64,000 nt of DNA from an uncultured Nitrospirota bacterium (GCA_937139405.1 CAKZPV010000008.1:1-64000), one strand, 5' to 3'. Shown: positions 39,585 through 49,290, counted from the first letter of the stretch. A program made the numbers and translations. Notes: generated by a model not told the origin, from the sequence alone.

Positions 39585-39847
39585 AGGCCTAGGCTACCTT
39601 CGAAAAAGAAATTGGATGTGGAATGACGCAATAAAGAGATAGGGATTATTGGCTGGAAAGCCTTCTACTCTCTTGAATGTGCTTAGTATACCGAAATATA
39701 ACTGGGAATCAACTCACTACACTTCTCAAATCTCAGAAACCAAAGGAAGTTCAGATCACCGAATTGACCCCGACATCAAAAACAGCACCTTGACAAAATA
39801 TTAAAGAGTTTCATACGATTTTTTCGCATTTCTAAAGAGTTTTCTTC

Positions 39848-40186
39848 ATGGAACAGGAATTTCCATCGCCAAGAAACATGATGGTAATTAAACCATTGCT
39901 GACTGTCTCGCTCCTCACTGTGCTCATCATGATGATGAGTTCGGTGCCGCTCAGCATGGCCTCTCATTTGATTGACCATCATCACCATTCTGCACAAACC
40001 CACACCACTGGCATTTGTGCCTGGATGTGCACCGCTGCCCAAACCATATCAACTGATTCTCAAATTTTCAGTCCAAATATTTCGCTTCTCGACATTCTTC
40101 CACCATTACCAATTTCTTCAATACCGCCTCCTCACCAAATTTTCTTTCCCAGCAGAGCTCCTCCATCTGATTCTTTCATAATCTGA
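39848..40186 (+). CDS. Small exported His/Cys protein, C-x-W-x-C / R-A-P-P family (copy A)
   Basis: 112 residues. A hydrophobic N-terminal helix (about 15-35) is followed by the histidine cluster IDHHHHSAQTH, then CAWMC, a Pro-rich stretch and SRAPPSDSFII at the end. The interval from CxWxC to RAPP is 41 residues, the same as in the 45014-45322 protein and close to the 44 residues in the 44123-44494 protein. This recalls, from memory, short DUF2946-type proteins that sit beside TonB-dependent metal transport genes. A role in periplasmic metal handling is inferred from the His and Cys residues only. ATG at 39848; tandem ATGs at 39878 are an alternative. Confidence 0.65.
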   Translation: MEQEFPSPRNMMVIKPLLTVSLLTVLIMMMSSVPLSMASHLIDHHHHSAQTHTTGICAWMCTAAQTISTDSQIFSPNISLLDILPPLPISSIPPPHQIFFPSRAPPSDSFII

Positions 40187-40504
40187 TCTCTTCTCTCCAT
40201 CATTCAATTTCTTGACCAATCCACTGAGTTCGAAGGTTAAGAGATGAGACTGAGTATAGTGAGAATAGACCAGAGCATACGTTTTTTTACTATTAGTAGT
40301 AATACTATGCCTAATTGAGCTTATCCACCTCGATAAGCTCACTGTAGCAATGGAATACTCTGAATATTCGAAGAACGGATCACTATTTATTTGCGCAGAA
40401 ATATCGAGGAGATTAAATGAACAGGCAGATAAACCTCCACTTCTGACTCGATTTGGCACACGTTGAGATAAGGTTCACAAAAGCATGAGCCTAAGGAGCT
40501 TTTC
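40187..40504. promoter_or_regulatory. Intergenic region with inverted repeat upstream of the TonB cluster
   Basis: About 320 bases before the TonB-domain gene. A perfect 9-base-pair inverted repeat GAGCTTATC / GATAAGCTC with a six-base spacer lies at 40317-40340, just after an AT-rich imperfect palindrome (TATTA-GTAG-TAATA) near 40290. These may be operator or hairpin structures for the cluster; no match to a canonical Fur box was seen. A minus-strand frame here is not convincing. Confidence 0.4.
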
Positions 40505-41092
40505 ATGGTCTCTCAAACAATGGTATTCCATAGCCGCATCATATGGTTAATGGCTGTACTCTCACTTTCTCCTATCGTCCTGGCTCACGGCACTGAAGCT
40601 GAGATAGAAGAAGAGATCCAGACATTGGATGTGATTGAAATTACTGGATCAGTGGTAGAACAAACTCCGCGTGAACTAAACTTTCCTGATCCAGCAATCT
40701 TACAACCTCACCATCAAAACTTCACGAAATACCTCTCTCGCCCAAAAATGAATCTGACAAAGTACATTCCGACCCATGCAAAAGTCTTATTAGATCAAAC
40801 GGCTAAGAGGAGAAAGCTCCATACCCCTGTTAAGCCCCTGAAAACAGAGCGTCCCGCTTTTCCTCGACGAGCGCGTGAACAAGGCTGGCACGGGCGGGTT
40901 ATCTTGCGTTTAAGAATCTTGCCTGACGGAACTGTGGCATCTGGCACGATTCACAAGAGCTCTGGCCATCAACTGCTAGATGACAACGCCATCAAAGCTG
41001 CGACACAATGGACCTTTCAGCCAGCGAAAAATGGTGGGTTTCCTGTGGCCGCCACCGTCAATATTCCTATTCAATTTGATTTGGTACAGTAA
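40505..41092 (+). CDS. Exported protein with TonB C-terminal domain
   Basis: 195 residues. The N-terminus is a cleavable-looking signal peptide (ending IVLAHG), not the usual TonB anchor with S-x3-H. The central part includes LDVIEITGSVVEQ, then a basic linker. The last 85 residues are a clear TonB_C domain: RPAFPRRAREQGWHGRVILRLRILPDG, SSGHQLLDDNAIKAATQWTFQPAKNG. A good ribosome site (AAGGAG, 7 bases) precedes the ATG. It opens the row TonB_C protein - TPR - TonB - ExbB - ExbD. A soluble periplasmic TonB domain may relay force or compete for receptor TonB boxes. Confidence 0.82.
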   Translation: MVSQTMVFHSRIIWLMAVLSLSPIVLAHGTEAEIEEEIQTLDVIEITGSVVEQTPRELNFPDPAILQPHHQNFTKYLSRPKMNLTKYIPTHAKVLLDQTAKRRKLHTPVKPLKTERPAFPRRAREQGWHGRVILRLRILPDGTVASGTIHKSSGHQLLDDNAIKAATQWTFQPAKNGGFPVAATVNIPIQFDLVQ

Positions 41093-41124
41093 ATGGCTTT
41101 CGACCCACGCAAAAGGACAGACAA

Positions 41125-42171
41125 ATGATTTTTATTAGAAATACCTACCTCTTTTTGTTTTGCACCATCATCTTGGGCTTCAGCCAAAAACCATTCAGCC
41201 ATGCCGGAGAGGCCCAAGATCTCTTGTCTCAAGCTTACACCGCCTATCAACATAATCAATGGGCCTCCGCCAAAGTTCCCTTAGAACGGGCAATCCATCT
41301 CTATCCCCACTATGCAGAAGCACACCACCTTCTGGGTTTAGTCTCGACGCAACTCAAGAAACCAGACCAAGCCATTGCGGCACTTCAACAAGCCGTCAAG
41401 GCCTATCCCTCGTTTGCGCGAGCATATGTGGATTTAGGGTTTGTCTTTCAAGAGCAACAACAATACGAAGAAGCCGAAAAGGCTTTTCGACAGGCCACAA
41501 CGATCTATCCGCATTACCTGGAAAGCTGGATGGCACTTGCCGCCCTCTTTGATCAACAACAACAGGGTACGAATGCCATTACCGCACATCAAAAGGTTTT
41601 AGAATTAGACCCGCATCATTCTGATTCACTGTATGGCCTGGCCTATTGGTTCATTCAGCAAGGTGAGCAAGAGAAGGCAGAACCATACGTTGAACAATTG
41701 ACGACCAAAAATCCTGAACATGTGAATGGGTGGTTGATGACCGGGTCCTTAGCACAACAATCCGGCCAGTCGGAAAAAGCCATCACGGCCTATCAACACG
41801 TTGTCGGCCTCCAACAACAACTCGTCGATCCGTATTTCAATCTGGGCATCTTGTACCAACAAAAAGAACAATACGCAGAATCAGCTGAGGCGTTTCGAAA
41901 TGTCCTTCGGTTAGATAACAACAATCCCGAGGCTCATATCAACTTAGGGGTCGTCTACACCGCTCTATCTAAACTGAAACAGGCGGAAGAAGAGTATGAA
42001 GCCGCTTTAGCCCTCAATCCTCGTCTTACTGAAGCTCATTACAATTTGGGGTTGCTCTATGAATTTCATCATAATGCGCCAGGGAAAGCCGTGGAATATT
42101 ATAAAGAATATGCAAAACTTGGCGGACAAGATGAACGAATTGCCAAACTCCTGAAACGGATTAGATCGTGA
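41125..42171 (+). CDS. Exported TPR-repeat protein of the TonB cluster
   Basis: 348 residues: an N-terminal signal or anchor (about 5-22) and roughly nine tetratricopeptide repeats, for example YAEAHHLLGLVSTQLKKPDQAIAALQQAV and PEAHINLGVVYTALSKLKQAEEEYEAAL. The last 4 bases overlap the start of tonB (GTGA), so it is co-translated with it. TPR proteins occur in several TonB/ExbBD operons and may organise the complex in the periplasm. It is colinear with, and clearly paralogous to, the TPR protein at 49382-50443. Confidence 0.88.
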   Translation: MIFIRNTYLFLFCTIILGFSQKPFSHAGEAQDLLSQAYTAYQHNQWASAKVPLERAIHLYPHYAEAHHLLGLVSTQLKKPDQAIAALQQAVKAYPSFARAYVDLGFVFQEQQQYEEAEKAFRQATTIYPHYLESWMALAALFDQQQQGTNAITAHQKVLELDPHHSDSLYGLAYWFIQQGEQEKAEPYVEQLTTKNPEHVNGWLMTGSLAQQSGQSEKAITAYQHVVGLQQQLVDPYFNLGILYQQKEQYAESAEAFRNVLRLDNNNPEAHINLGVVYTALSKLKQAEEEYEAALALNPRLTEAHYNLGLLYEFHHNAPGKAVEYYKEYAKLGGQDERIAKLLKRIRS

Positions 42172-43055
42172 CAGAAACGAGTTTTCATCAGGAGTCGGAT
42201 ACCCAGATTTTTTTTCTCAGTGCTTTAGGGAGCATTCTGCTGCATGGGTTACTGGTGGCTAGCTTAGCCAATATGCCACAAACCACCATCGAAAAAGATG
42301 AACTCCCAACGGTACAGGTGAACTTGATTGCTTCGTCAGAGATTTCAGAAAAACCAGCTTCTGAAACGCCGACACCCATACAACCCCATGTAGCTATGCC
42401 GGATGTGCCTCCCCCCCCGATGCCTCTCACACGTACCCAGCGATCACAACCATCAGTCGCGCCATTGCAAGCCTCACTGACACCAACAGCGAAACAGGCT
42501 CTCACACCACCCGCACCGGCAAAACGGATTTTACAAGATACCCGAGCATCACAAGCTCTACAATCAAGAAAAATGATGAAAATGCGGATACCGATACCAA
42601 CCCAACAGGCAACACCTACATTGCCAACAAAAACGACTCAAACCAACATTCTAAGCCATGTTGCACCACCACTGCCGACGATAAGAAAAGAACGTTTCGC
42701 AGCTCGGGCACTGCCCGCACCGGCGACAGTAACAACACCACGAACGCTCACTGCTACTCTACCCGATCAGACAGGGTCGACGATGACTCGACCAACCATC
42801 ATCTCATCATCCAGACCAGCCTACCCACGAGTCGCGCGAGAGTCGGGATGGGAAGGAACAGTTGTTGTTCGTACACTCGTCGACACGAATGGCCGACCAA
42901 GCCAAGTCAAGCTTCGCAAAAGCTGTGGGCACCCCACGTTGGATGAAGCCGCACAAGACGCTGTTCAGCACTGGATATTTCAACCCGCGAAGGATGGCAA
43001 TATCCCCATCACCAAATGGGTCGATATTCCCATTAAATTTGCTCTCAACAGTTAA
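42168..43055 (+). CDS. tonB: TonB energy transducer, membrane anchored
   Basis: 295 residues with the classic layout: one N-terminal membrane helix (about 15-34) carrying S22-x3-H26 in GSILLHGLL as in E. coli TonB, a Pro-rich periplasmic linker (PDVPPPPMPL and following), and a C-terminal TonB_C domain (PAYPRVARESGWEGTVVVRTLVDTNG, SCGHPTLDEAAQDAVQHWIFQPAKDG). The start is a GTG overlapping the TPR gene stop. With ExbB and ExbD just downstream it should transmit the proton gradient to outer-membrane receptors. Confidence 0.92.
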   Translation: MTETSFHQESDTQIFFLSALGSILLHGLLVASLANMPQTTIEKDELPTVQVNLIASSEISEKPASETPTPIQPHVAMPDVPPPPMPLTRTQRSQPSVAPLQASLTPTAKQALTPPAPAKRILQDTRASQALQSRKMMKMRIPIPTQQATPTLPTKTTQTNILSHVAPPLPTIRKERFAARALPAPATVTTPRTLTATLPDQTGSTMTRPTIISSSRPAYPRVARESGWEGTVVVRTLVDTNGRPSQVKLRKSCGHPTLDEAAQDAVQHWIFQPAKDGNIPITKWVDIPIKFALNS

Positions 43056-43084
43056 CGAGCTATCGATACAAGAAAGACATGTGA

Positions 43085-43684
43085 ATGGAATTTCTTAACA
43101 TACTCATGAAAGGCGGCTGGATGATGATTCCGATCATTGTCTGCTCGCTCTTAGCCTTAACCATCAGCATCGAGCGGTTGATCTATTTCAAAAATTTCAG
43201 TGCAAGCCGCCTAGCGCCAAAAATGCTCTCGCTCGTCGAACAAGAGAAAATGACAGATGCCCTGGCTGTGGCTGAACAGCAAACGAGCCCTGTACTTCGA
43301 GTCATATCCGCAGGGATTCACCAACGCAGGAACTACCCGTCCAAAGCCATGGAAGCCACCGGCATTGCAGAACTCACAAAAATGAAACGAGGCCTTTCCG
43401 TATTGGATACCGTGATCACGCTTGGCCCGTTATTAGGACTATTGGGGACCATCATCGGGATGGTTGATTCATTTGGCATCATGTCTGAATCTGGATTGGG
43501 GAATCCTCATGCGGTCACGGGAGGAGTCGCGGAAGCATTAATCTGCACTGCGGCAGGGATTTTTGTGGCTGTGACCACTTTGATCCCTTATAACTTTTTC
43601 TTAGCACGCATGGAACAAGAAACTGAGAAAATCGAACATTATGCGACCAAAGCTGAGGCGGCTCTCCAAAGCCTGGTCGACTGA
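43085..43684 (+). CDS. exbB: Biopolymer transport protein ExbB (MotA/TolQ family)
   Basis: 199-residue proton channel subunit. Three membrane helices: about 12-29 (WMMIPIIVCSLLALTISI), a second with VITLGPLLGLLGTIIGMV, and a third with VAEALICTAAGIFVAVTTLIPYN. The TLGP..GLLGTI..M signature is diagnostic. Start ATG at 43085, 29 bases after tonB; exbD follows after 8 bases. Confidence 0.94.
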   Translation: MEFLNILMKGGWMMIPIIVCSLLALTISIERLIYFKNFSASRLAPKMLSLVEQEKMTDALAVAEQQTSPVLRVISAGIHQRRNYPSKAMEATGIAELTKMKRGLSVLDTVITLGPLLGLLGTIIGMVDSFGIMSESGLGNPHAVTGGVAEALICTAAGIFVAVTTLIPYNFFLARMEQETEKIEHYATKAEAALQSLVD

Positions 43685-43692
43685 ACTCAATC

Positions 43693-44103
43693 ATGAGATT
43701 ACCTGCAGCAGCCAAAAAGAAACCTCGTATCGAAATCATTCCTATGATTGACACCATGTTCTTCTTACTGGTGTTTTTCATGATTGCAACGTTGTCTATG
43801 ACGATTCAACAAGGCATGCCAATTTCACTGCCCACAGCCGAATCTTCAACAGAATCAACCACTGAGAATGTCTCACTCACTCTGACTCAAGAAGGCACTC
43901 TCTATTACAACAAAGAAGTGATTACCTTACAGGAACTCGAGCAACGACTTGTGAATCTTCGGCAAACATCAACAGATCCTTCGTTATTGATTAATGCCGA
44001 CGAGCAAGTTCCACATGGACGAGTGATCAAGGTCATGGATCTCATTCGACTCAGTGGAATCAAGAGTATGGGCATTGCAACACAGCCTTCATTTACAGAA
44101 TAA
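43693..44103 (+). CDS. exbD: Biopolymer transport protein ExbD
   Basis: 136 residues. The single membrane helix contains the proton-carrying aspartate D20 in IPMIDTMFFLLVFFM; the periplasmic domain follows (VSLTLTQEGTLYYNKEVITLQELEQRL). It forms the stator with ExbB. The stop is only 19 bases from the next small exported protein, suggesting that copy B belongs to the operon. Confidence 0.93.
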   Translation: MRLPAAAKKKPRIEIIPMIDTMFFLLVFFMIATLSMTIQQGMPISLPTAESSTESTTENVSLTLTQEGTLYYNKEVITLQELEQRLVNLRQTSTDPSLLINADEQVPHGRVIKVMDLIRLSGIKSMGIATQPSFTE

Positions 44104-44122
44104 TTTTTGTTATACGAAGCCT

Positions 44123-44494
44123 ATGCTCTTTCATCGACCTTCTCAATTCAAATCATCTTTAACCCTCAATAGGAAGGACAGCACTCCTTCCTTCACTAAC
44201 GTTTTGGTGGCTGGTCTTCTTGGAATCCACCTCACTCTCATAACGGTTGGAACATTTTGTGCTTCAACCGCCATCAATACCAATCCTTCACACCATCAGG
44301 ATCATCAATCCGCAACGTCTATCCTCTGTGTCTGGGCATGCCAGGTTGGGCAAATCACCGCTTCAGCCACGCCGACAGAAAACCTTGCCCCGCTTCCCTT
44401 TCTCATCTTTGTTGGGATCGTACTCCCTCCCACCATTCCTGCCGTGTTTTCCCTCTTCTCCTTTGCAGCCCCCCGTGGCCCTCCATTGTTGTAA
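44123..44494 (+). CDS. Small exported His/Cys protein, C-x-W-x-C / R-G-P-P family (copy B)
   Basis: 123 residues, starting 19 bases after exbD. A hydrophobic helix at about 27-46 is followed by PSHHQDHQS, then LCVWAC, a hydrophobic segment and the C-terminus AAPRGPPLL. It shares the layout of the products at 39848 and 45014: membrane segment, HHxxH-like cluster, CxWxC, then RxPP about 41-44 residues later. Sequence between motifs is poorly conserved. The location in the exb operon suggests a function tied to TonB-driven uptake, perhaps of a metal; this is inference. Confidence 0.6.
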   Translation: MLFHRPSQFKSSLTLNRKDSTPSFTNVLVAGLLGIHLTLITVGTFCASTAINTNPSHHQDHQSATSILCVWACQVGQITASATPTENLAPLPFLIFVGIVLPPTIPAVFSLFSFAAPRGPPLL

Positions 44495-44698
44495 ATCTTC
44501 GTCTATTCCCAATTCTCAACAGTGATGCTCGCGTTTCGCCTGTAGGGAAACTTGAATTTTCCATAGCAAGGCGATTCTTGAAGCATCAGGAAACAACGTC
44601 TTAAGTCACAAGACCATCGACCCAGGAATCGGGAGATTAACTATACAATTTTCGTTAAGCATGTGAAAAAAAATTTCGCAAGTTAAGGAGGACAGACA

Positions 44699-44905
44699 AT
44701 GAATCAAGAATTGTTACGCGTCGGCGAGGCTGCCAAAGCGTTAAACGTGAGTCGGTGGACCATATACCGATGGGTAGAAGAAGACCGCCTCAAAGCCACA
44801 AAAATAGGAAAAGGAAGCTTACGAATTTTTCGTGATTCAATTGATATGTTGGTCGAACGCAACCGTAAAGACTATTGGGAACCCGTCCCCACAGGAACGC
44901 GATAA
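44699..44905 (+). CDS. Helix-turn-helix protein, excisionase/MerR-like
   Basis: 68 residues behind a near-perfect ribosome site (AAGGAGG about 8 bases from ATG). The sequence RVGEAAKALNVSRWTIYRWVEEDRLKATKIG is the winged HTH of the excisionase (HTH_17) family, followed by GSLRIFRDSIDMLVERN. Such proteins act as DNA-bending accessory factors or local regulators. It lies between two members of the small His/Cys family, so it could regulate them; no integrase is nearby. Confidence 0.85.
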   Translation: MNQELLRVGEAAKALNVSRWTIYRWVEEDRLKATKIGKGSLRIFRDSIDMLVERNRKDYWEPVPTGTR

Positions 44906-45013
44906 TTTTTGGGCTGAAGTGTTGCAAGTGACTGCATCCATCTGTAGAGGAATATTCAAAAAAGGCATATGGTTAGATATGGGTTGATGACTGCTGACTT
45001 TCATGGATAACTC

Positions 45014-45322
45014 ATGAGAACTTCATCACTTCAAAAAATTCTCGCTGCTGGACTTGGTCTATGGCTCCTTGTGGTCACAACAGCATTGGCGAGCCCTATG
45101 ACAGGGCATGCCATTGACCACCATCACACGCAGAGCAGCCACTCTCAAACATGGTGTGATTGGATGTGTAAGGCCAGTCACGCGATTCACACGCCATCTG
45201 TTTTTCTTGTTCAATCGTATGATGTTCTCACATCAGCCTTTCGACCTTATCCAACTCACCACCCGTCCATCCTCCCTTTTTCAGCCGATTCTCGAGCTCC
45301 ACCAGCCTTCTCTCTCTTTTAA
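45014..45322 (+). CDS. Small exported His/Cys protein, C-x-W-x-C / R-A-P-P family (copy C)
   Basis: 102 residues: signal peptide (ending ALASP), AIDHHHTQSSHSQ, WCDWMC, then SRAPPAFSLF at the C-terminus. The spacing from CxWxC to RAPP is 41 residues, identical to the 39848-40186 protein, although the sequence between is different. The identical IDHHH stretch is also shared with that protein. No ribosome site stands out. As in the other two, His and Cys suggest metal binding. Confidence 0.62.
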   Translation: MRTSSLQKILAAGLGLWLLVVTTALASPMTGHAIDHHHTQSSHSQTWCDWMCKASHAIHTPSVFLVQSYDVLTSAFRPYPTHHPSILPFSADSRAPPAFSLF

Positions 45323-46429: not shown

Positions 46430-46978
46430 ATGAAGAAGTTTGTTTTCATGAGCATCATGTTGACAATCATTGGATGTTCGTCAATGTCGATGACTCCAGT
46501 TACACAGTCGGGCGGGATGCCCAAGGACGGAGAACTGGACTTTCCCAAGGACTACACCACCTTCCCAACATTCTTGAAGCGTATCCAAAAACCGAACGCC
46601 GTACGAGATCTATATATTAATCCAACTGGAGCCGAAGCACATCATGGCAAACCTTTTGCCAATGGATCCATCTTAGTCATGGAAATCTACAAGGCCAAGA
46701 AAGCTGCTGGTGATGAGTTCGAGAAAGATGGCGAAGGTAATCTTATAAAAGATGATCTTGCCAAGGTGTATGTGATGCAAAAAGGCAAAGGCTGGGGCAA
46801 ACAAGCACCCGAAGGATTGAAGAATGGGGATTGGATCTATTCGGCATTTAAACCCAACGGAGAACGCTTAGAAGTAGATTATGCTAAATGCCGAAGTTGT
46901 CATCTTCCATTGGGTGATGCCAAGGATTATGTGCAACGGTATGACGAATACTTCGAAAAACGAGTCCACATACACTAA
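46430..46978 (+). CDS. Cytochrome P460-family lipoprotein
   Basis: 182 residues. The N-terminus is a lipoprotein signal with lipobox IIGC (C16). The mature part follows the cytochrome P460 pattern: LDFPKDYTTFPTFLKRI, FANGSILVMEIYKAKK, KDDLAKVYVMQKGKGWG, and the haem c site CRSCH at 154-158. Known P460 enzymes of ammonia oxidisers and methanotrophs turn hydroxylamine into NO or N2O and have a lysine cross-linked to haem. Whether the cross-linking lysine is present cannot be settled by eye, so this could instead be a related cytochrome c'-beta. AGGAGG precedes the ATG. Confidence 0.82.
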   Translation: MKKFVFMSIMLTIIGCSSMSMTPVTQSGGMPKDGELDFPKDYTTFPTFLKRIQKPNAVRDLYINPTGAEAHHGKPFANGSILVMEIYKAKKAAGDEFEKDGEGNLIKDDLAKVYVMQKGKGWGKQAPEGLKNGDWIYSAFKPNGERLEVDYAKCRSCHLPLGDAKDYVQRYDEYFEKRVHIH

Positions 46979-48269: not shown

Positions 48270-48476
48270 ATGTCACGCGGGAAATATCTCAGCTTAGAAG
48301 AAGCCAGAAAGAAGGATAAGCAAGGGAAGGACAAACTTGAACAGTTTGCTAACGAGCACCCATCTGAGGGGAGTAAGAAGAAATTTGAGGCGTTGTTTGG
48401 AGCGATGGCTCAGACGGAGTCAGGGAAGAAAGTGAAACCTAAAAAGAAGCCAACAGGCGGGGCCACATCAAAATAA
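48270..48476 (+). CDS. Small lysine-rich hypothetical protein
   Basis: 68 residues, highly charged (YLSLEEARKKDKQGKDKLEQF, KKVKPKKKPTGG), no signal peptide. It follows the 47574 gene by 3 bases. Its stop codon TAA (48474-48476) sits directly against the left end of the IS1595-type element, so the original C-terminus may have been altered by the insertion. Function unknown. Confidence 0.55.
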   Translation: MSRGKYLSLEEARKKDKQGKDKLEQFANEHPSEGSKKKFEALFGAMAQTESGKKVKPKKKPTGGATSK

Positions 48477-49290
48477 GGGCCTTTCGCATGTTATATCGGA
48501 ACTCAAATTCACCAAGATATTTCGGGGTATGCTTGCTAGAGACATGCATATGCGTTCCTTTAATGGATCGTTTAATTTGGCTCAAAAACCCTTCAATGCT
48601 ATTCACATGAATATCCTTATGAGCATATTGTCCTTCACCATGATTCACGGTTTCATGAGCATAGCCCTTTTCATCGATGGTTTGATATGAAGGCAATTCA
48701 TCGGTTTGAATCGTGGAATCTTTTTCGATATTGGCTTCTATATGAGGATGGAGTGTTTTTCGCTTCACGTTAGGCACGACATGAGTCATTACATTTCCCT
48801 CACGCTCCAACAGACCAAAGACCACGATTTTGCCAGCGGCCCCGCGTTCACGCTTTCCAGGTCGCTTGCCACCGATATACGTTTCGTCGGCTTAGACGGT
48901 GCCAGCCAAGGGTGGGTTTCCATTAATTTTCCTCATGTATTTACGGATTTCATGGCCCATACGCCAGGCCGTTTTATAGGTGACGCCCAATTGCCGTTGC
49001 AGTTCTTTGGCAGGGACTCCATGACGCGAAGTGGTGAACAGGTACATGGCATAAAACCATTTTTGCAGCGGCGTATGCGAAGCCTGAAAGGGCGTGCCTG
49101 CCATCGGGTGAATATGATGACCACACCACGAACAGGCAAAGGCTGGCATGTTGGTCAGTTTGGTGAATCGCCCACGCTTCTTGCACTTGGGGCAGTCCAG
49201 TGTGTCGCCAAACCGAATCTTCATGAGATGCACTAAGCAGGATTCATCCGTGGGGAAGGCTTGAAAGAATTGTTGAACGGTGAATTTCAT
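48439..49290 (-). pseudogene. IS1595-type transposase, broken by an in-frame stop
   Basis: ATG at 49290 behind GGAGAG opens a zinc-ribbon N-terminus (CPKCKKRGRF, FACSWCGHH), then GTPFQASHTPLQKWFYAMYL and a helix-turn-helix. After 132 residues a TAA at 48894-48892 replaces the glutamate codon of the usual [VE]-x-D-E-T motif; the same frame continues ADETYIGGKRPGK, TDELPSY and HVNSIEGFLSQIKRSIKG, which carry the D-D-N catalytic residues. Only this one change breaks the frame, so the inactivation looks recent. The frame runs past the left repeat into the 3' end of the small gene at 48270-48476. Confidence 0.85.

Follow-up and report, generated by a model that had tools for sequence, protein, structure and literature searches.

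Three small exported reading frames at a tonB/exbBD cluster

The window analysed here is a stretch of 64,000 nucleotides from an uncultured Nitrospirota bacterium (GCA_937139405.1, CAKZPV010000008.1:1-64000). Around its tonB/exbBD operon lie three small open reading frames (ORFs), which we call upstream ORFs (uORFs) A, B and C and which resemble the published leader peptides CruR and CutF. Each encodes a protein with a signal peptide (judged from the hydrophobic N-terminus and the helix in the AlphaFold2 model), a His cluster, a C-x-W-x-C motif and, close to the stop codon, R-[A/G]-P-P (Table 1). The Cys and Arg motifs start at residues 57 and 103 in uORF A, 69 and 118 in uORF B, and 48 and 94 in uORF C; the segment that separates the last Cys from the Arg is 41, 44 and 41 residues long. 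A first-pass annotation of the stretch had described the three ORFs, the motifs and these distances; all were recovered on re-reading the sequence. With the uORF C protein as the query, the other two score with E values of 3e-7 and 0.02, and since this search scores the other copies, the three are true paralogues rather than a chance likeness. A fourth paralogue (CSWYC, RAPP) is located on contig C45 of the same genome (E 9e-7 with the uORF C query). No other open frame of at least 60 codons in the 64-kb window carries R[AG]PP within 14 residues of its stop. Pfam and NCBIfam searches with uORFs A–C gave no match over the cut-off, and the AlphaFold model of uORF C (pLDDT 71, pTM 0.38) shows nothing confident beyond the signal helix.

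uORF A is followed by the tonB operon, uORF B is placed after exbD and ahead of a helix-turn-helix (HTH) gene, and uORF C precedes a conserved exported orphan protein. The orphan has 22 sequences in the taxonomic family, with two invariant Cys, behind class C uORFs; it has no Pfam match, and its predicted fold (pLDDT 77) has no PDB match at E ≤ 0.001. The promoter-like element 5′ of uORF A is suggestive only, as the regional count of such sites is not above that of shuffles. By eye, the N-terminus of the first TonB_C protein (IQTLDVIEITGSVV) looks like the TonB box/plug start of a receptor, and two ORFs at 48439-49290 (minus strand) resemble pieces of a broken IS1595-type transposase.

Table 1. 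Features of the window around uORFs A–C
Feature	Position	Strand	Remarks
Promoter-like element, TTGACA-18-TACGAT	39790..39819	+	just 5′ of uORF A; 10/12 consensus matches
uORF A, predicted exported leader peptide, 112 aa	39848..40186	+	IDHHHH, CAWMC, RAPP 6 residues from end
In-frame ATGs, alternative starts of uORF A	39878/39881	+
RAPP codons of uORF A	40154..40165	+	predicted arrest site
uORF A–tonB gap, 318 nt	40187..40504	+	no terminator-like hairpin on + strand
TonB_C protein 1, 195 aa	40505..41092	+	PF03544, 2e-24; predicted target of uORF A
TPR protein of tonB operon	41125..42171	+
TonB_C protein 2, 295 aa	42168..43055	+	PF03544, 1e-21
ExbB	43085..43684	+	PF01618
ExbD	43693..44103	+	PF02472
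uORF B, 123 aa	44123..44494	+	SHHQDH, CVWAC, RGPP 2 residues from end; 49-residue ruler class
RGPP codons of uORF B	44474..44485	+
HTH_17/excisionase-type DNA-binding protein, 68 aa	44699..44905	+	predicted target of uORF B, 204-nt gap
uORF C, 102 aa	45014..45322	+	IDHHH, CDWMC, RAPP 5 residues from end; 46-residue ruler class
RAPP codons of uORF C	45293..45304	+
Conserved exported orphan protein, 249 aa	45503..46252	+	predicted target of uORF C, 180-nt gap
Cytochrome P460 family protein	46430..46978	+	PF16694, 3e-19; after orphan protein

A family with a fixed ruler and its own downstream genes

A hidden Markov model (HMM) built from the four copies of the genome matches 48 of the 49 genomes of the window's taxonomic family, including 34 of 34 good-quality ones, with one to six copies each. 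A second model, based on a 92-row alignment of relatives, matches 159 of the phylum's 396 genomes (maximum nine matches per genome): all listed members of the order Nitrospirales, most of the remaining class and one genome outside the class. Nitrospirales is the order that holds the nitrite-oxidising Nitrospira. Judged by these profile matches, the putative arrest-peptide family is near-universal and multi-copy in Nitrospirales and their class. The family suspected in the first-pass annotation is thus real.

The shared anatomy was read in 132 copies from the window and about 80 fetched DNA stretches. Over the 92 divergent relatives, alignment columns C48, C52, R94, P96 and P97 are invariant, with H38 and W50 nearly so. 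In 129 of the 132 copies, no more than 12 residues separate R-x-P-P from the stop; two of the remaining three run off a contig end, and one is a weak, probably false match. The R-[A/G]-P-P of the first-pass annotation accounts for 126 of the 129 (64 RAPP and 62 RGPP), the others being two RSPP and one RPPP. Its C-x-W-x-C describes the window copies, but the motif of the wider family is C-x-x-x-C, with W (110/129) or L (17/129) in the middle. As a control, neither RAPP nor RGPP occurs in 369 neighbouring genes (119,171 aa).

The Arg follows the first Cys at a distance of 46 residues in 93 copies, 49 in 28, 47 in five and 48 in three, with a standard deviation of 1.2 as compared to 8.7 for the length from the start to the Cys. 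For the 46-residue class, mean identity over the final 31 linker residues ahead of the R-x-P-P block is 15% (8% is expected from composition alone), while C-x-x-x-C reaches 67% and the R-x-P-P block 70%. The linker thus keeps its length while its sequence drifts, which fits the prediction of a ruler set by the length of the ribosomal tunnel. In a second family of the order (20 stretches), 37 of 37 such ORFs hold a spacing of 46 or 47 residues, and no further open frame of at least 80 codons in these stretches ends in R[AG]PP. The second family also has a CxWHC type with a terminal RGPP, placed 7–89 nt 5′ of a conserved lipoprotein-like gene (L167, L169, L171, L172, L174, L177). A decayed RGPP copy that has lost CxWxC is located with an HTH remnant on a short contig (G000:C6:3268-3462, minus strand), ahead of a gene that by eye resembles a TonB-dependent receptor.

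Each copy class is followed by its own kind of same-strand gene, with a median gap by class of 125–215 nt. On the outer-membrane (OM) side, the downstream genes encode an OM β-barrel (Phenol_MetA_deg type), the tonB-TPR-tonB-exbB-exbD set or a TonB-dependent receptor; the others are a TlpA/ResA-type thioredoxin, the 68-aa HTH_17 protein, and the orphan exported protein with cytochrome P460 behind it. In a tree of the 129 copies, the target labels take 19 changes against 73.9 in shuffles, although its forks are weakly resolved (104 columns) and the clustering is inflated by near-copies. The ruler length tracks the target: 48–49 for TonB-dependent transporter (TBDT) and HTH genes; 46 for tonB, orphan and OM barrel; and 46–47 for TlpA. 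The nearest relatives of uORF A precede tonB (also TlpA) genes. The proposed association with tonB/exbBD was found for many relatives, but many others precede OM barrel, TlpA or HTH genes without TonB genes, which makes TonB just one of several targets. The distinct roles suggested for the three window copies agree with these data. Each class is tied to its own immediate downstream gene.

Comparison with CruR and CutF and the RNA around the arrest site

The uORF CruR of Bordetella pertussis (bp2923, DUF2946) codes for a small exported protein that has a Cys pair and, three residues from its end, RAPP (Roy et al. 2022, PMC9426467). C90 and R139 are 49 residues apart; the copper response requires the Cys pair, expression without copper requires RAPP, and the effect of copper is strongly reduced when the motifs are moved five residues further apart (PMC9426467). 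Termination by Rho after CruR uses a rut site located within a C>G bubble (PMC9426467). The account in PMC12992588 reports that arrest by CruR was demonstrated in vitro, and describes RAPP/RGPP as the strongest and most context-tolerant arrest motifs, which are avoided in bacterial proteomes. In Rhodobacter capsulatus, CutF combines CxxxC with a Pro-rich end; it releases the Shine-Dalgarno (SD) sequence of cutO (PMC9973294).

In common with CruR, the ORFs of the family are small exported uORFs with a Cys pair and RAPP by the stop, the first Cys and the Arg are 46 or 49 residues apart (49 in CruR), a TonB-dependent transporter operon is headed after a long gap, and a C>G bubble surrounds the end of the ORF. 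Unlike CruR, they combine CxWxC (CxxxC) with clustered His residues, carry either RAPP or RGPP, fall into a 46- and a 49-residue class, occur several times per genome and have other targets. All three window ORFs fall within the published filter for CutF-like proteins (PMC9973294): they have 102–123 aa (<150), a signal peptide is predicted as above, PP is located 2–6 residues from the end (≤15), and a same-strand gene lies within 1000 nt (gaps in Table 1). The CxxxC regarded there as a putative Cu-binding motif is present in each, with both Cys invariant in the 92 relatives. The target of CutF is the multicopper oxidase CutO, whereas the targets here are tonB/exbBD, OM barrel, HTH and TlpA. 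Overall, the sequence-predicted targets of the family (TBDT, tonB-exbBD, TlpA-like thioredoxin, OM barrel) resemble those published for CruR and CutF.

In 129 copies, the mRNA between about −90 and +60 nt relative to the Arg codon is rich in C and poor in G, with C at 0.31–0.39 and G at 0.11–0.18 before and at this codon. At synonymous sites of the last 40 codons before the Arg, G is 0.185 against 0.271 expected. The linkers of the three window ORFs fall in the top 1%, 1% and 6% of the background for C minus G. Rho is encoded in the genome, and no intrinsic terminator was found on the plus strand in the uORF–target gaps. The C>G bubble, the encoded Rho and the terminator-free gaps lean to the Rho route of CruR.

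A different picture emerges in a sister genus (g2): in 11 of its 14 species, the SD sequence and start codon of the OM-barrel gene pair with the codons surrounding R-G in RGPP (stretches L083, L037, L081, L077, L084, L036, L038, L039, L078, L079 and L082). The pairing comprises 18 pairs in three blocks, the partners are about 150 nt apart, and the columns are kept across the 11 species; covariation is unscorable because the paired columns hardly vary. The energy is about −27 to −33 kcal/mol in ten species, as compared to a mean near −14.5 for swapped targets. This pairing of arrest codons with the SD sequence fits SD unmasking. As for CutF, the SD sequence of the next gene pairs with upstream sequence, but in g2 the partner lies about 150 nt further 5′, within the uORF's own codons at the arrest site. 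In the window, the arrest codons of uORF A, AGAGCUCCU, can pair with the tonB SD sequence AGGAGCUUU at 40494-40502, which is the only such hint among the three copies (percentile 0.15). Across the family, pairing of the R-x-P-P codons with the gap is not above swapped controls, save weakly for tonB. A common RNA hairpin in the gaps gave no consensus for the cl1, TBDT and HTH classes and a weak one for tonB, and the gap folds are only mildly stabler than shuffles (mean z −0.6 to −1.4). The coupling step may therefore differ between lineages.

Leader-peptide control, its alternatives and its meaning

We favour, with a probability of about 0.85, the reading that uORFs A–C are cis-acting leader peptides of the CutF/CruR kind, which sense a metal, most likely copper, and switch the next gene through arrest at R-x-P-P. 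From the point-by-point match of the window ORFs to the anatomy of CruR and CutF, we infer arrest, metal binding and regulation; copper as the ligand and the direction of the response are likewise taken from these relatives. The signal peptide would start export of the chain. With the ribosome at R-[A/G]-P-P near the stop, some 46 or 49 residues would separate this motif from the His cluster and C-x-W-x-C, and these would have just emerged from the exit tunnel. Bound metal (most likely copper) would decide whether the ribosome stays arrested, and the arrested ribosome would in turn decide expression of tonB-TPR-tonB-exbBD (uORF A), of the HTH regulator (uORF B) or of the orphan exported protein and cytochrome P460 (uORF C). 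The arrested ribosome may keep Rho off the C-rich, G-poor RNA near the arrest site, which is the CruR route, or it may cover an anti-Shine-Dalgarno, which is the CutF route; both may also be used, in different lineages.

Several observations weigh against this reading. Linkers rich in Pro, Ser and Thr may account for part of the C-rich bubble. Pairing of arrest codons with the SD sequence is weak for the window copies (percentiles 0.15, 0.42 and 0.67 against swapped targets), and conserved RNA structure was not found for their classes. The Cys spacing is CxWxC and not the CXXC of CruR. A link to DUF2946 (PF11162), mentioned in the first-pass annotation, stands as a weak match below the gathering score: uORF B reaches 19.4 against 23.7 bits, A and C have no match, and 20 of the 92 relatives match weakly (best E 1e-4). 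The window's own genome has no match over the cut-off. Common descent could explain part of the shared 46/49 length, though this length has survived near-complete turnover of the linker.

The first-pass annotation had taken the products for mature periplasmic proteins that bind a metal or thiol partner, which as metallochaperones or TonB accessories would act in trans for the adjacent TonB system. Conservation of the export signal, His cluster and paired Cys would suit such proteins, and TonB genes adjoin the window copies and many relatives. We nevertheless consider this role very improbable: many copies precede operons without TonB genes, and published relatives act in cis and are rapidly degraded or undetected as proteins (PMC9973294, PMC9426467). 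The terminal R[AG]PP, the fixed length of a barely conserved linker up to this motif, the lack of a predicted fold (uORF C) and the tie to the next gene match CruR and CutF instead. The metal or thiol site itself is probable.

Least probable of the alternatives are secretion monitors of the SecM/ApdA type, in which pulling by Sec would free the R-x-P-P arrest and export capacity, not metal, would be sensed. A signal peptide with RAPP is the anatomy of known Sec/YidC monitors, and secA adjoins uORF A, though divergently oriented. The uORFs share the terminal RAPP/RGPP on small exported proteins with ApdA, ApdP and Streptomyces lividans uORFs, and these accounts report such proteins as enriched upstream of TonB- and Cu-related genes (PMC10951233, PMC12992588). 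However, no Sec or YidC gene is located downstream in any copy class examined (the first genes in the window are tonB, HTH_17 and the orphan protein), the targets are of envelope or metal type, and a His cluster and CxWxC at fixed distance would have no role in a pure secretion monitor. The Sec monitors among these peptides are not described as having a conserved His/CxWxC head. For the published peptides arrest is shown; here it is predicted.

Copper is the best guess for the ligand, by analogy of CxxxC and the targets with those of relatives, but a His/Cys site would also suit zinc, nickel/cobalt or thiol state. That the same arrest peptides sense one of these, with copper irrelevant for the three copies, is a variant of the leader-peptide reading whose confidence overlaps with it, and we think it unlikely. 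The His-rich heads and TlpA-type thioredoxin targets would agree with it, as would the CutF-like proteins with His motifs only that precede HupE/UreJ genes (PMC9973294), but it is the copper-linked CutF/CruR clusters that show CxxxC in a TonB/TBDT/TlpA context. A related RAPP uORF of the same genome (G000:C34:58139-58459; L155:140-463, plus strand; head EVHHLFSEIDHDGHEHAKHDLCTWVEHH) bears on both sides. It precedes an OM barrel and a ZnuA-type ATP-binding cassette operon, yet its head, with one Cys, DHDGH and CTWVEHH, differs visibly from the CxWxC copies. This uORF family is present in 32 of the 49 family genomes, with Cys to Arg at 47 or 48 residues in 25 of the 25 copies readable by motif scan, and is a candidate zinc-sensing arrest peptide. 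A second DHDGH-type copy (G000:C34:65311-65628, minus strand) has an in-frame TAA ahead of RGPP and is probably decayed. A small exported ORF with CSACQWSH that ends in RGPP (G000:C25:42528-42797; L157:493-801, plus strand) lies 98 nt 5′ of a 291-aa ORF without Pfam match.

Because the uORF of the ZnuA operon has another head with a similar Cys–Arg spacing, a head-swapped set for different metals is plausible. Tentatively, and with less than even confidence, we propose that the class runs a modular set of metal-sensing arrest peptides, of which up to nine copies per genome are detected. CxWxC with a His head would sense copper, and DHDGH...C-x-W-x-x-HH before ZnuA would sense zinc, with a common 46–49-residue ruler and R-x-P-P output. 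In some lineages the arrest codons would double as the anti-Shine-Dalgarno of the target, such that the stalled ribosome opens the next start.

The CutF/CruR-like kind is already known. Most likely new here are its multi-copy, near-universal occurrence in Nitrospirales and their class and its array around a tonB/exbBD operon. Nitrospirota are unmentioned in the main text of the CutF paper (PMC9973294); the published surveys of RAPP uORFs span many phyla, by their own account including Nitrospirota genomes (PMC12992588), so single members may already figure in supplementary lists. Under the leader-peptide reading, three unannotated proteins would gain a concrete mechanism that is open to test, and copper-type control by arrest peptides would extend from mostly proteobacterial and Bacteroidota cases to Nitrospirales and their class. 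The family, with about 130 divergent linkers of two discrete lengths and matched targets, would provide a test bed for how metal binding by a nascent chain is coupled to arrest.

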